Origin: Arenibacter sp. F26102
GTDB taxonomy: Bacteria > Bacteroidota > Bacteroidia > Flavobacteriales > Flavobacteriaceae
Direction: 5' to 3'
DNA length: 64,000 nt
NCBI RefSeq assembly: GCF_023015865.1
Contig: NZ_JALKBC010000008.1
Location: 1 to 64,000, forward strand
Of the stretch, positions 1,188 through 56,444 are shown piece after piece. Below the pieces are notes generated by a model that was given only the letters and a program-made list of their open reading frames with translations, was not told the origin of the DNA and searched no databases. Position 1 is the stretch's first letter. The number at the start of each line of letters is the position of its first letter. Both the position numbers and the translations under genes were made by a program.

Positions 1188-2788
1188 TATTTAGAATAGC
1201 ATTTTGTTTTATTGTATTATTAAATACAGGCTTGGGGTTTAAGGCTTATGCGCAAAATCGCCCCAATATTCTTTTTGCCATTAGTGATGACCAATCCTTT
1301 TTCCACACTGGCTATGAAGGTTCCAACTTTGTTAAAACACCAGCCTTCGATAGGGTTGCCCGTGAAGGCGTTTATTTCTCCAACGTTTATGCCGGTTCTC
1401 CTGGTTGTGCACCTTCCAGAAGTGCCATTATTACGGGTAGACATCATTGGCAAAATGAACAGGCCGGACAACATGCCTCAGCATGGCTAAAGAAGTATGT
1501 ACCCTTTGTGGATCTGCTTGAAAAAAATGGATATGCCACCGGAAGAACGGGAAAGGGAGTTGGCCCTTTCCAATACGCCCGTACAGAAGAGGATTCGCTT
1601 TGGCGGAAAAATGATGCTGCCGGGGTTTCGCATAGTAATATTAAATATGAGGAGCAAAACGATGAACGATTTGCCCAGGGCGTAAGCAAGACCAATTACT
1701 TTGGCAATTTTAGATATTTTGTAGAGAATATTAAAAAGGATAAACCATTTTTTTTCTGGTACGGAGGGTACGAACCACATAGAACCTACGAAAAGGGGTC
1801 GTGGAAAAATATGTCCAAGAAATTGGAGGATGTAGAGGTGCCCGAATTCCTTCCTGATAATGATGAAATACGGGGAGATCTTTTGGATTATGCGGTTGAA
1901 ATTGAATGGTTTGACCTTCATTTTCAAAGAATGCTGGAATATTTGGAGGAAATTGGCGAATTGGAAAACACCATTGTAATCGTAACTGCCGACAATGGCA
2001 TGCCTTTTCCACGGGCCAAGGCCAATAGCTATGAATACGGAGTTCATGTGCCTTTTGCCGTTAGATACCCAAAGAAATTTCCGGGAAATAGGGTTGTAGA
2101 AGATCCCATTGGATTTATTGATTTGGCACCAACCATTCTTGAAATAACAAACACTTCCTCCAAAGGAATGCTCCCCATTACCGGGAAAAGTATATTGAAT
2201 CTTTTGCAATCTAAAGAAAGTGGTGTCCTGTCAAAAACGGAAAGAGCTGCATATTCCGGTAGGGAACGCCACTCCTCGTCCAGATTTTTAAATTGGGGAT
2301 ATCCTCAAAGGTCCGTACGAAAGGGAGATTATCTTTTTATATGGAACATGAAACCCGAACGGTGGCCAGCAGGTGCTCCACAGAAGTTTGCGGAAAATGA
2401 CAGCTCACAATTGCTTCCTATGTACGGACTGGACAAAAACAAGAGCTACATTAATGGCAGTGCCTTTACCGATATTGATGATTGCCCAACAAAAACCTAT
2501 CTTATTGAAAATCATGAGGACGACACCATTTTGCCTTATTTCGATTTAGCGGTTGATAAACGTCCTGAATTTGAACTGTACAATGCGGAGAAAGATCCTT
2601 CCTGTTTAAATAACTTATCGGGAACACCCTCATTCCATAAAATTGAAGAGGCTTTAAAGACCGAACTATTGAGCGAATTGAAAAGATCCAATGATCCTCG
2701 TATTGTAGGCCCCGATCGCGAAATATTTGATAGCTATAAGCGATATTCCCCAATGCGAGAATTTCCTAATCCTGCTGCGGAATATTGA
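1184..2788 (+). CDS. sulfatase (formylglycine-dependent, type I)
   Basis: This encodes a 534-residue periplasmic sulfatase that should remove sulfate esters from a substrate such as an algal or host polysaccharide. A signal peptide covers residues 1-24 (cleavage near AYAQN). Metal ligands Asp35-Asp36 lie in AISDDQSF. The Cys75-Ala-Pro-Ser-Arg motif carries the cysteine that an FGE-type enzyme converts to formylglycine, so maturation needs a formylglycine-generating enzyme encoded elsewhere. A later TADNG motif supplies further active-site residues. Length is normal for the family. It overlaps the upstream small gene by 4 bp. The exact substrate cannot be read from sequence, and no SusC/SusD pair is adjacent. 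Confidence 0.93.
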   Translation: MIFRIAFCFIVLLNTGLGFKAYAQNRPNILFAISDDQSFFHTGYEGSNFVKTPAFDRVAREGVYFSNVYAGSPGCAPSRSAIITGRHHWQNEQAGQHASAWLKKYVPFVDLLEKNGYATGRTGKGVGPFQYARTEEDSLWRKNDAAGVSHSNIKYEEQNDERFAQGVSKTNYFGNFRYFVENIKKDKPFFFWYGGYEPHRTYEKGSWKNMSKKLEDVEVPEFLPDNDEIRGDLLDYAVEIEWFDLHFQRMLEYLEEIGELENTIVIVTADNGMPFPRAKANSYEYGVHVPFAVRYPKKFPGNRVVEDPIGFIDLAPTILEITNTSSKGMLPITGKSILNLLQSKESGVLSKTERAAYSGRERHSSSRFLNWGYPQRSVRKGDYLFIWNMKPERWPAGAPQKFAENDSSQLLPMYGLDKNKSYINGSAFTDIDDCPTKTYLIENHEDDTILPYFDLAVDKRPEFELYNAEKDPSCLNNLSGTPSFHKIEEALKTELLSELKRSNDPRIVGPDREIFDSYKRYSPMREFPNPAAEY

Positions 2789-2811
2789 TTTTAAATGAGA
2801 TATACATATCA

Positions 2812-2972
2812 GAAACTGGAAAGCTGAGTTACAAGAGCCTAGCATCTGGACTATTTCTTGTCTTGGCTCTAGTCTCTAGACTCTTGGTTCCATACTAATG
2901 GCTATTGCATAATGGCTCTGACTACTGAAAACTGAATACTACCTTATGCCTACTGACCACTCAATACTAACT
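2812..2972. repeat. degenerate intergenic repeat, copy A
   Basis: Non-coding, low-complexity sequence that begins with GAAACTGGA, continues through a TACAAGAGCCTAG-like block, and then has CTTGGCTCT and ACTACTGAA-type runs. It aligns by eye with 4091-4220 and 5245-5395. It lies between the convergent ends of the sulfatase and the LpxR-like gene, directly past the stop codon of the minus-strand gene. Confidence 0.6.
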
Positions 2973-2993
2973 TCTCCATACTACCGACAGGCT

Positions 2994-3980
2994 TTAGAAT
3001 CCCCTCGTATATGAAAGAATTACGTACTGATGGAATCTGGCACGCTCAAACTCAGGTGAATTATAACGTACCCCTACCCAAAAATCGTTTCGTCCGTAGC
3101 GCCATTGAAAATCGAAACCGGCATATACTACGGTAGTATTGGAAGCAATCAATAACACGGAATCATCCCCCAAGGCATTGCCTTCCAACAAACCATTGTG
3201 ACCTACCAAACGATATCCGCCACGAAGGGCAAAGAAGATCGCACTTTCCGTAGATCCTATTTGGTTGTGCGCTATGCTGGAAGATAACGGATTTCTCCTT
3301 CCAAAATAGGCCACCAACTCCGGGTGTACATAGATATCCCTAGTACCAAAGGCAAATTGGGACTGTGTTGCAATGTGAATACTAAAGGGATTGGGGACCA
3401 ATTGCCATTCATAGAGGTATCTAGTGTACAGGTTATAATGAACACTATTCTCCATTTCCCCCACCCAGGTAGGGGTTTCGGTCTTCATAACGGAATGATG
3501 GTACCATCTTTGCAAACTACCTGCTCCCGAAGCCTTACCTGCCAACCCTAGGAGAAAATTTGCCTCTATTAAACTGTTGCGACCCACACGGGACCAACCG
3601 GACCTCAGTGCCGAGAACCCTACATATGCACGGTCCAATTTTTGAACATCTTCTGTAATAAGATATGATGGAGTAATAATCTCCTGACCAAGGGAAAAAG
3701 TGAGCTGTTCATTTTCCGAATTAAATAATCCCTTTTCCAGTCGGTGCCTATACGTTAAAAATAGTCCGGCGGTATAGTACCGATCTGTTAGCAATATAAA
3801 GTCATTGTCATGCCGTAGCCCAATTTGGTTCCGAATGGTTTCCTTTGCCCCGCTAATCTCACCCTGCTGTGCCTTGGAAAATAAGGTCCCACCAACAAAA
3901 CATATCAACACTGCGAGGAAGTTAATTAGACCTTTGGAAAAATTAGGCCACATTGGAAGTGGTTGATTAACTAGGTGCAA
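2994..3980 (-). CDS. LpxR-family outer membrane lipid A deacylase-like protein
   Basis: This encodes a 328-residue beta-barrel protein of the LpxR/DUF2219 family. Characterised members remove the 3'-acyloxyacyl group of lipid A at the outer membrane. The family signature near the mature N-terminus is visible as HDNDFILLTDRYYTAGL, containing the conserved Asn/Asp and the YTxG element. The protein ends in an aromatic residue (SYTRGF), as outer membrane barrels do. A signal peptide lies within the first ~38 residues; an internal Met closer to the hydrophobic core is possible as start. It is a single gene flanked by repeat copies A and B. Many Bacteroidota homologues have no proven substrate, so the enzymatic role is inferred. 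Confidence 0.8.
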   Translation of the reverse strand: MHLVNQPLPMWPNFSKGLINFLAVLICFVGGTLFSKAQQGEISGAKETIRNQIGLRHDNDFILLTDRYYTAGLFLTYRHRLEKGLFNSENEQLTFSLGQEIITPSYLITEDVQKLDRAYVGFSALRSGWSRVGRNSLIEANFLLGLAGKASGAGSLQRWYHHSVMKTETPTWVGEMENSVHYNLYTRYLYEWQLVPNPFSIHIATQSQFAFGTRDIYVHPELVAYFGRRNPLSSSIAHNQIGSTESAIFFALRGGYRLVGHNGLLEGNALGDDSVLLIASNTTVVYAGFDFQWRYGRNDFWVGVRYNSPEFERARFHQYVILSYTRGF

Positions 3981-54782: not shown

Positions 54783-54963
54783 GCGTTTCCAAATCTGGAA
54801 ATTAACCAATATCAGGCATGAAATAACTTCAAAATATATTGATAATTAAGGGTTTACACTAATTTATTAGCGTTACCGACATAAATGATTTAAAAAAAAT
54901 TGAATTATGTGTATCCTTTTTGCTTAAAGTAAGTCTCCTTAGTGAACTTTAAATTTTATAGAT

Positions 54964-55077
54964 ATGAATAATTGTAAATGCACTAAGTGTGAATGCAGCA
55001 AATGTAATTGTGTAAACTGTTTGGAGAATAACTGCTCCTGCACCAAATGTGATTGTACAAAATGTGAATGTTGCTAA
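54964..55077 (+). CDS. metallothionein-like cysteine-rich microprotein
   Basis: A 37-codon gene encodes a protein with 14 cysteines: positions 4, 6, 9, 11, 14, 16, 19, 24, 26, 29, 31, 34, 36 and 37. It is built from four C-[TS]-K-C-x-C units (6-11, 11-16, 26-31 and 31-36), two on each side of a CLENNC centre, with no aromatic residue. This is the composition of a metallothionein that binds Zn, Cd or Cu through thiolate clusters. It does not match the SmtA or MymT types I know. A terminator follows within 4 bp, and a SigZ-like sigma gene comes next. Expression is inferred from the ATG, the stop, the terminator and the repeated pattern. Confidence 0.8.
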   Translation: MNNCKCTKCECSKCNCVNCLENNCSCTKCDCTKCECC

Positions 55078-55080
55078 AAA

Positions 55081-55106
55081 AAGGTTGGTCCCTCCAGACC
55101 AACCTT
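55081..55106 (+). terminator. terminator after the cysteine-rich gene
   Basis: AAGGTTGGTC (55081-55090) pairs perfectly with GACCAACCTT (55097-55106) around a 6-nt loop. It starts 4 bp after the stop codon. Partial read-through would reach the sigma factor gene 16 bp later, so it may act as an attenuator. Confidence 0.75.
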
Positions 55107-55121
55107 GTATATTAGTGTATT

Positions 55122-55649
55122 ATGAAGATGGAAACGGAAACCATATGGGAAAAGTTCAACAGTGAAGTTTATTTTTTCATTTTAAAAAAAGTAAGGGATA
55201 CGGATATCACCAATGAAGTGATGCAAAATTCATTCTTAAAAATTCATCAGAGTATCAATACCTTAAAGAATCCTGAGAAAGTAAGGGCATGGGTATTTCA
55301 AATCGTAAGAAATGAAATTGCAAATCATTTCAATGAACGCTCAAAATCCGTTCATTCTTCTGATGTAAAATTATTCACAACTTCCAATAGTTATAATGAT
55401 CTGTGTTGTTTGGACCGCTTTATAAACGATTTACCTAAACAGTACAACGAAGTTGTTGAGTTGGTTTATCTTAAGGGCAATACCCAAGTTGAAACGGCTG
55501 CATTAATTGGCATCAGTCTGTCCAACGTAAAAGCTAGAATTAGGCGCGCCAAATTAATCCTTATCAATAATTTTAACACCTGCTGTAAGTTCAAAATAAG
55601 CACAGAAGGTAAACTCATTGGGGATTCCAACTGTTCCCGTTGTATTTAG
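55122..55649 (+). CDS. sigZ: ECF sigma factor with C-terminal cysteine tail (SigZ-like)
   Basis: This encodes a 175-residue ECF-type sigma factor. Region 2 covers residues ~8-75 (VMQNSFLKIHQSINTL, VRAWVFQIVRNEIANHF). Region 4 covers ~100-150, with the helix-turn-helix QVETAALIGISLSNVKARIR. A tail follows with Cys154-Cys155, Cys171 and Cys174 (CCKF...CSRC), and a second pair, Cys95-Cys96, sits in the linker. SigZ proteins share this CC...C-x-x-C end. The tail could bind metal and make activity metal- or redox-dependent; no anti-sigma gene is adjacent. It lies 44 bp after the metallothionein-like gene, across a terminator hairpin. Confidence 0.9.
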   Translation: MKMETETIWEKFNSEVYFFILKKVRDTDITNEVMQNSFLKIHQSINTLKNPEKVRAWVFQIVRNEIANHFNERSKSVHSSDVKLFTTSNSYNDLCCLDRFINDLPKQYNEVVELVYLKGNTQVETAALIGISLSNVKARIRRAKLILINNFNTCCKFKISTEGKLIGDSNCSRCI

Positions 55650-55778
55650 GGCTTACCTTCCCCTACTCCATGATTACTTAAAACTGCCCTGGAAAATGCC
55701 CAAGAATTATTATCTTAGGGAGGAATTGCATAATAGGATTATAACCCTTTCATATTGTACTTATGTCCCTATGCCAAC

Positions 55779-56444
55779 ATGAAAATCAAGGAACTAAAAA
55801 TATACACTTCCAATATTAAGGCCCAGGCAGATTTTTATTCCCAGGTTTTGGGATTAATGATTATTGATAGGTCCCACAAACATATTTCCTTTCAAATTGG
55901 GAGTTCAATGCTTCATTTTGAGTACAAGCAGACAGCGACACCTTATCATTTTGCTATTAACATTCCTGCCAATAAAGAGGTTGAAGCCTTAAAATGGTTA
56001 AAATTTAAATGCCCGATATTAAAAGACGGAGAAGATGAAATCATAAACTTCACTGCTTGGAATGCCAAAGCCATCTACTTCTATGACGAAGACAAAAATA
56101 TTGTGGAACTCATAGCCCGTAAAAATCTAAATAATGCCTCTGAACATAATTTTGGACCGGAGCATTTTCTGGAAATATCGGAAATCGGGGTCCCAACAAC
56201 AGATATTGAAAGGGAATACAATACCTTAAAACATGTAATGGATATCGCTATTTATGATGGCGGATTTGGAAACTTTTGTGCCATTGGCGATGAAAACGGA
56301 TTGTTTATATGCATCAATAGGGAAAGAAAAAATTGGTACCCTACCCAAGACAAGGCCTACCCTTCAGAGTTTGAATTGAAATTATCCCAGAATGAAAAAA
56401 ACTATAGTCTTGAATTTAAAAATGAAAAAATCCATTTCCCTTAA
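55779..56444 (+). CDS. two-module VOC (glyoxalase-like) protein
   Basis: This encodes a 221-residue cytosolic protein with two VOC modules: residues 1-115 (ELKIYTSNIKAQADFYSQVL; FYDEDKNIVELIAR) and 125-221 (ISEIGVPTTDIEREYNTLKH). Metal-ligand candidates are in LHFEYK, YHFAINI and IVELIA. The ATG at 55779 fits the fold better than upstream in-frame starts. It lies 129 bp after the sigma gene in the same direction and may be under its control. The substrate is unknown. Confidence 0.88.
   Translation: MKIKELKIYTSNIKAQADFYSQVLGLMIIDRSHKHISFQIGSSMLHFEYKQTATPYHFAINIPANKEVEALKWLKFKCPILKDGEDEIINFTAWNAKAIYFYDEDKNIVELIARKNLNNASEHNFGPEHFLEISEIGVPTTDIEREYNTLKHVMDIAIYDGGFGNFCAIGDENGLFICINRERKNWYPTQDKAYPSEFELKLSQNEKNYSLEFKNEKIHFP

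Follow-up and report, generated by a model that had tools for sequence, protein, structure and literature searches.

A conserved 14-Cys metallothionein-like peptide and its SigZ-like sigma factor partner in Arenibacter and related bacteria: a proposed metal-response operon

Introduction

A frame for a very small, Cys-packed product in the DNA of Arenibacter sp. F26102 raises the question of whether it is a real gene, what its product would do and what would control its expression. The window, as we call the whole stretch of 64,000 nucleotides that was analyzed, had been read once before, and the earlier note suggested that the product may represent a new type of metallothionein in Flavobacteriaceae. 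According to a 2020 paper, biological function had been investigated for no bacterial metallothioneins other than SmtA and MymT (PMC7387436). Here the peptide was compared with its relatives in the genus, the family and the phylum, and the neighboring gene, the upstream region and the intergenic hairpin of the locus were analyzed.

A conserved Cys-rich peptide

The frame runs from ATG to TAA and encodes 37 residues with 14 Cys, exactly as first described. Its translated product is MNNCKCTKCECSKCNCVNCLENNCSCTKCDCTKCECC.

54964..55077, + strand: type A metallothionein-like protein, 37 aa, 14 Cys (basis: frame, conservation across relatives)

The Cys are located at positions 4, 6, 9, 11, 14, 16, 19, 24, 26, 29, 31, 34, 36 and 37, following a CxCxx repeat that lacks one Cys in its middle and ends with CC. 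Cys make up 38% of the peptide, while His, F, W and Y are all absent; besides M1 the only hydrophobic residues are V17 and L20, and a hydrophobic signal stretch is absent. The peptide thus displays the features of metallothioneins as a functional class, being small and very Cys-rich, with CxC/CxxC arrays and few or no aromatics. This strain does have the C-[TS]-K-C-x-C units pointed out before, four in number and placed around CLENNC, but their K is no family trait, the majority form being CTNC.

Across both strands of the 64 kb window, no other ORF that starts with ATG and spans about 20-80 aa reaches 8 Cys and a Cys content of 20%. The 388,232 bp around 51 relatives from a scan of named genomes contained exactly 51 ORFs with at least 8 Cys and at least 20% Cys, all of them the relatives themselves, which agrees with the earlier view that such a product is improbable by chance.

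Of 18 Arenibacter genomes, counting the own one, 15 encode the peptide, always with 37 aa and the full 14 Cys, and the frame was intact in the 14 other genomes. In the diverged members of the genus, differences in the peptide gene fell mostly on the third codon position (e.g., 3/2/16 by codon position in L010). A total of 87 relative loci were collected; some genomes are held twice, by the genus search and by the named-genome scan, which leaves 69 loci distinct by sequence. An intact frame and 14 Cys were found in 87/87, including L037, in which the spacing of the 14 Cys is altered. The loss of the frame or of Cys in relatives, which the earlier note had named as counting against the peptide, was therefore not seen. 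A second, weak match in G010 (L016; E 0.09, one internal stop) was rejected as a chance match and left out of all counts. A distant copy outside the 87, L130, has 12 Cys. In an alignment of 46 peptide sequences the mean column identity was 78%, and non-Cys positions were conserved too. We consider the ORF at 54964-55077 confirmed as real.

The named-genome scan detected the 51 peptide loci in hosts including Arenibacter, Maribacter, Gillisia, Salegentibacter, Psychroflexus, Polaribacter, Aequorivita and Cellulophaga. The peptide was also detected in records titled Roseivirga, Brumimicrobium and Portibacter and in a Saprospiraceae MAG. In the family Flavobacteriaceae, 24 of the 397 genomes surveyed encode the peptide, spread over 17 of 237 genera; the corresponding figure for a survey of the phylum was 8 of 395 genomes.

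No Pfam family was matched by the window peptide at E<=10 or by its 46 relatives at E<=1, searches in which HMMER filters can drop weak matches. Nothing in NCBIfam or the PDB matched the peptide, and tblastn against plasmids gave one partial, irrelevant match only. The Pfam model for bacterial metallothioneins of the SmtA type, PF02069, was among the models without a match. The proposal of a new metallothionein type is supported by the lack of a library model and the retention of 14 Cys, whereas its restriction to Flavobacteriaceae did not hold, the family extending beyond that group. It is very probable that the peptide is a metallothionein which binds metal and whose family is absent from the reference libraries. 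Its composition, with Cys as the only candidate ligand, suggests that Cu(I) and Cd(II) would suit it at least as well as Zn(II).

The SigZ-like sigma factor partner

The gene directly downstream encodes a putative sigma factor:

55122..55649, + strand: SigZ-like ECF sigma factor, 175 aa (basis: Pfam Sigma70_r2 and r4_2 above cut-off; Cys conservation; model)

Both Sigma70 regions by which ECF sigma factors are recognized, 2 and 4, were detected in the product of 55122..55649 (PF04542, 30 bits, cut-off 24; PF08281, 43.2 bits, cut-off 25.7), and TIGR02937 of NCBIfam was matched at 58.7 bits (cut-off 42.9). SigZ models were among the best family matches, yet the scores remained below their cut-offs (124.9 bits against 168.65 for the SigZ equivalog TIGR02959; 134 against 212 for PRK09637).

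The sigma gene is located directly 3' of the peptide gene on the same strand in 84 of the 87 loci (66 of the 69 distinct ones). It is absent next to the peptide in L025, L028 and L052; the upstream region of L052 is cut by the contig end. The earlier note had used SigZ as a search aid only, suggesting that conserved Cys repeats be looked for upstream of SigZ genes; the sigma factor turned out to accompany the peptide almost constantly and to be the most informative part of the locus. Clustering of the neighbors of the 51 named loci placed the sigma factor in 50, and the next largest among the top 25 clusters had 9 or fewer, mostly from Arenibacter. No second shared neighbor, such as a metal transporter or a possible anti-sigma factor, was found among the 51 named loci.

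The distribution of the two genes is congruent as well. The 15 peptide-bearing genomes of the genus are exactly those with a sigma orthologue (E at most 4.5e-84), and the other 3 of the 18 have distant sigma factors only (best E 2.0e-32). Among the 397 family genomes, 24 encode the peptide and at least 24 a sigma factor of 211 bits or more, both being present in 22. A diverged 14-Cys copy with its promoter (L149) makes G233 the 23rd genome with both, while G242 (L147) encodes the sigma factor with its Cys tail and no peptide.

The peptide-sigma pair of L001-L015 lies in at least three unrelated gene surroundings within Arenibacter, in a cassette-like manner, and the two genes thus seem to travel as a unit. 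A gene for a glyoxalase-fold protein (55755-56444, + strand) follows the sigma gene in the window and accompanies the pair in part of the genus only. In G008, a distant SigZ-like gene (L107) was found with similar scores at four contig-end sites (contigs C3, C13, C14 and C15), resembling a repeat element.

The sigma factor carries Cys95 and Cys96 in the linker between sigma2 and sigma4, and Cys154, Cys155, Cys171 and Cys174 in a C-terminal tail (CC-x15-CxxC). In 41 chosen sigma sequences C95, C154, C155, C171 and C174 were invariant and C96 was present in at least 90%. The last tail Cys is lost in one relative outside the 41 (L030/L143). A structure model of the sigma factor reached a pLDDT of 78 and a pTM of 0.42, the tail (pLDDT 49-69) being drawn with low confidence as two short strands. 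No metal site was visible in this model, in which tail and linker are too uncertain.

A combination that may be of the same kind, a Cys-rich C-terminal extension and a linker Cys pair, is described for CorE/CorE2 of Myxococcus xanthus (ECF238, formerly ECF44). CorE is an ECF sigma factor that is activated by metal through the extension and a linker CXC, both of which are essential for activity (PMC8999054, PMC3107203). A CXC in the linker is reported for the former ECF44 part of ECF238 alone. The present linker has CC instead of the CXC given in the description of CorE, and the tail holds 4 Cys in about 21 residues versus 6 Cys in the 38-residue CRD described for CorE.

Such Cys pairs might also serve a thiol/redox module, with the sigma factor sensing disulfide or electrophile stress and the peptide serving as a scavenger or a buffer of thiols instead of a metal store. 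In favor of this, a redox-sensitive zinc site could be built from these Cys, and metallothioneins are also able to scavenge reactive species (PMC7387436). Against it, the CxC-rich spacing of the peptide is typical of metal-thiolate clusters, and CorE, the known precedent, is a factor that responds to metal. We regard the redox explanation as unlikely.

Another explanation is that the peptide regulates the sigma factor instead of storing metal, either as a metal-dependent anti-sigma factor or by delivering metal to the sigma Cys or withdrawing it from them. Such a role would accord with how regularly the peptide accompanies tail-bearing sigma factors in the family, and with the lack of any other common neighbor. 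However, peptide copies without a sigma gene exist (L025, L028, L052 and L129), and the composition is store-like (38% Cys, few hydrophobics), probably offering little surface for binding a sigma factor. This role appears quite improbable, and storage of metal by the peptide is preferred.

The upstream promoter-like element

The upstream regions of the relatives are dissimilar except for one block, GTATC[CT]TTT(T) followed by GTCT[AC]C. In the window this block corresponds to:

54910..54938, + strand: ECF-type promoter, TGTATC (54910-54915) - N17 - GTCTCC (54933-54938) (fixed layout in relatives)

The strict pattern TGTATC-N17-GTCT[AC]C was present in 52 of the 69 distinct relatives, always with a spacer of 17, and failed in the other 17, mostly by one base. 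Among 68 distinct regions 5' of the peptide gene, 66 contain GTATC[CT]T; its distance to the ATG is 53 or 54 bases in 61 of the 66. These 66 regions were aligned on GTATC[CT]T, so the first box is invariant by construction. The second box, which was not used for the alignment, kept its fixed distance, with each base of GTCT retained in at least 63 of 66 and the last C in 66 of 66. The element of L034 lies too close to the gene for the alignment script. L025 has neither box, and L028, although it is one of the 66, has the first box only.

Where the sigma gene is missing, the promoter was missing as well in all three peptide copies that could be tested (L025, L028 and L129). Distant copies with a sigma gene (L128 and L130) displayed a diverged promoter box.

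The strict pattern matched once in the own genome. Over a set of 39 genomes (36 peptide-bearing ones and 3 from the genus that lack the peptide) 38 matches were detected, 30 at the peptide locus and 8 elsewhere, and the reversed control gave 5. The pattern alone is not fully specific, as seen from 8 off-target matches versus 5 in the control. Seven of the 8 were inside ORFs, so that the recognisable target of this promoter type seems to be essentially the peptide-sigma operon. The eighth, in L125, overlapped a gene start: a perfect type A promoter match (L125:1515-1542), 151 bases 5' of a lipoprotein-like ORF. With L125 as the only match at a gene start, a wider regulon is not claimed.

A two-box element with fixed spacing in front of the operon of an ECF sigma factor is a usual sign of autoregulation. 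We propose that the promoter at 54910..54938 is read by the co-encoded sigma factor.

Type B peptides and the Cys tail

A sigma profile search of the 397 family genomes detected at least 102 places in 97 genomes; 8 sigma candidates were scored per genome, so these counts are lower bounds. The 90 places examined are those remaining after the 12 with the weakest E-values were left out. Below the 24 top scorers lies a second tier of sigma factors, with a Cys-rich peptide of another type upstream. This type B peptide, of about 33 aa with 11 Cys, precedes the SigZ-like gene at 49 loci of Flavobacteriaceae (L155-L198, L200, L205, L211, L212 and L219). All 11 Cys were invariant in the 48 loci that could be aligned from the end. 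In front of the type B genes lies a distinct version of the promoter, about TGCATCTTTTT-N12-CGTCTA, with GTCT at a fixed distance in 49/49 when aligned on the first box. Two type B peptides had no match in Pfam and NCBIfam, and tblastn of a type B peptide against plasmids gave none.

Scoring the tail motif as CC-x9-22-CxxC, a metallothionein-like peptide was located upstream of 71 of the 73 tail-bearing sigma factors in the family survey, versus 1 of the 17 tail-less ones (L143, with a type A peptide). The 73 comprised 21 with type A, 49 with type B, one with an altered-spacing type A copy (L150, the same place as L037), which the peptide pattern had missed, and two without a peptide (L147, and L199, whose match contains two stops). 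The linker of the type B sigma factors has one Cys, not two, in 48 of 49.

In a quick sigma tree (158 rows, 146 columns, tail removed, many forks unresolved) type B required one change and type A two. As far as this tree can be read, the peptide types follow the sigma lineages, which is all that it shows.

Outside the family survey, 31 further sigma loci were examined: five plasmid records, and 26 loci taken from the 41 that the phylum survey had detected (a few of the 26 within the family). The tail motif was present in 14, of which 6 had a Cys-rich peptide and 8 did not, and 5 of the 17 loci without the motif had such a peptide. The tail-bearing SigZ-type factors without a Cys-rich peptide in the stretch examined are those of L228, L229, L232, L237, L242, L244, L248 and L249, and include two Vibrio records. 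As a universal predictor of metallothioneins the Cys tail thus failed outside the family survey (8/14). The pairing of a SigZ-type gene with a Cys-rich peptide recurs in several forms, and the tail is no rule outside Flavobacteriaceae.

Peptides of 26-27 aa with 8 Cys are encoded shortly 3' of SigZ-like genes in three loci of one genus (L230:2130-2213, L231:2132-2215 and L233:2131-2211), and one of 43 aa with 13 Cys shortly 3' of a SigZ-like gene in L238 (2095-2226). These four loci belong to the 5 that have a peptide but no tail motif, and their peptides, from other Bacteroidota families, are possibly further metallothionein types. SigZ-type genes were also present on plasmids, and in the 5 of 18 plasmid records that were examined, Priestia and Vibrio among them, no ORF with at least 8 Cys and at least 20% Cys was found beside them. 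Laxer limits (6 Cys, 14%) returned one ORF each in L247, L249 and L250, which were rejected as chance-like. On the mobilizable plasmid pSMS7 of Arenibacter algicola (L251), a SigZ-like gene precedes genes for a thioredoxin-family protein and a permease (1965-3869), possibly another metal or metalloid operon.

The hairpin between the two genes

A strong hairpin starts three bases past the stop codon of the peptide gene:

55081..55106, + strand: hairpin between the peptide and sigma genes, terminator/attenuator-like (basis: folding energy, covariation)

Its folding energy is -16 kcal/mol (z -4.0). In a covariation set of 32 chosen relatives a consensus stem of 12 pairs was obtained, of which 11 had changed on both sides with the pairing kept. 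The hairpin is present in most relatives; some outside this set lack it (e.g., L031, L034, L035, L067 and L075). In the own genome the hairpin is followed by a poor U-run on the + strand and a terminator scan was positive on the - strand only, while many relatives display a U-rich run after the hairpin on the + strand. Of the terminator placed after the stop by the earlier note, the hairpin itself therefore stands, but a clean U-run on the + strand does not. The simplest reading would be a leaky terminator, giving much metallothionein mRNA and little sigma mRNA.

A small Cys-rich ORF, a short gap, a hairpin three bases past the stop and a regulatory gene downstream would also be the layout of a Cys-codon leader peptide, that is, a cis attenuator that senses the supply of Cys-tRNA, with the hairpin as a regulated terminator of the sigma gene. 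In mycobacteria, polycysteine leader ORFs are likewise short and Cys-rich and precede a regulated gene. The present peptide differs from them in its fixed Cys spacing and its stand-alone copies. A leader needs neither a fixed spacing of 14 Cys nor conserved non-Cys positions (78% mean identity in the 46 sequences), and intact 14-Cys copies stand without a sigma gene in L025, L028, L052 and L129. Furthermore, the same place is occupied at other loci by type B peptides, whose Cys spacing is different but likewise fixed. The free Cys spacing and lack of stand-alone copies expected of an element acting only in cis were thus not what was found, and fixed spacing and stand-alone copies make a leader attenuator highly unlikely.

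Discussion

We propose that the peptide and sigma genes form a two-gene metal-response operon, in which the sigma factor senses a thiophilic metal and transcribes its own operon and the metallothionein sequesters the metal; we put the probability of this reading at roughly 70%. From the two co-inherited genes, the promoter-like element, the hairpin and the conserved Cys, all visible in the DNA, we infer metal binding, the identity of the metal, direct sensing, autoregulation and read-through as follows. The first gene would encode a cytosolic metallothionein whose 14 thiols sequester a thiophilic metal as metal-thiolate clusters, the likeliest metals being Cu(I) or Cd(II)/Zn(II). The same metal would be sensed by the sigma factor directly, through the linker Cys pair and the CC-x15-CxxC tail, with no anti-sigma factor as a shared neighbor. 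Metal-bound sigma factor would then bring RNA polymerase to TGTATC-N17-GTCTMC upstream of the first gene, and its own operon would be amplified. The hairpin 3' of the first gene would keep the metallothionein mRNA abundant, with a fraction of transcripts reading through into the sigma gene. Finally, the metallothionein would strip the metal from the sigma factor, which would fall silent. A Cys-tailed sigma factor and a thiol-packed peptide under one dedicated promoter fit such a closed loop.

In favor of the metal-response operon we count the co-occurrence of peptide and sigma factor, the fixed promoter, the link between tail and peptide (71/73 versus 1/17) and the CorE precedent. Against it we count the lack of a shared metal transporter, the loose link between tail and peptide beyond the family survey, the sigma factor without a peptide in L147, the one-Cys linkers of type B, the 17 of 69 relatives lacking the strict promoter, the off-target matches and the modest sigma model.

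Metallothioneins and metal-sensing ECF sigma factors are both known kinds, and both in one operon were not found described in the literature searched. That search, which covered few subscription papers, returned no metallothionein under an ECF sigma factor or in one operon with it, judged by titles and the opening of abstracts, no report of SigZ with a metallothionein or of a signal for the SigZ group, and no described metallothionein for the phylum Bacteroidota. Nothing useful was found on Arenibacter and metals, and a paper on copper in Bizionia mentions metallothionein in a reference only.

Like the present peptide, SmtA and the Pseudomonas-type metallothioneins are small and Cys-rich, with presumed metal-thiolate clusters. 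The peptide differs from the SmtA type by having no Pfam match and no His, whereas Cys9His is used by the PflQ2 MT (PMC7387436). The same source places smtA under the repressor SmtB (PMC7387436), while the present gene would be under an ECF sigma factor. MymT of mycobacteria is likewise small and Cys-rich, a copper-type metallothionein by composition. It belongs to the regulon of the CsoR homologue RicR (PMC10141476), and the present peptide has no library match. CorE has targets including cuoB and copB, and a metallothionein was not found named among them; here the sigma factor pairs with a metallothionein-like gene.

For the sigma factors as a class, we lean slightly towards the view that the Cys-tailed SigZ-like factors of Flavobacteriaceae and near kin are directly metal-sensing and anti-sigma-free, each acting essentially for its own gene and a metallothionein, with at least two peptide families that have their own promoter versions (TGTATC... 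and TGCATC...). This view is confined to Flavobacteriaceae and near kin because the link between tail and peptide is weaker outside the family survey. Elsewhere in the phylum there are perhaps more metallothionein partner families, such as the peptides with 8 Cys in 26-27 aa located 3' of the sigma gene.

Two peptide families, both conserved and neither represented by a model in the searched libraries, are thus tied to a group of sigma factors for which no reported signal was found. If the proposal is true, the SigZ-type factors would gain a function, and a sigma factor would join the known ways by which metallothioneins are controlled. The small sigma-promoter pair may serve to report metals, and the sigma partner offers a way to locate tiny Cys-rich genes.
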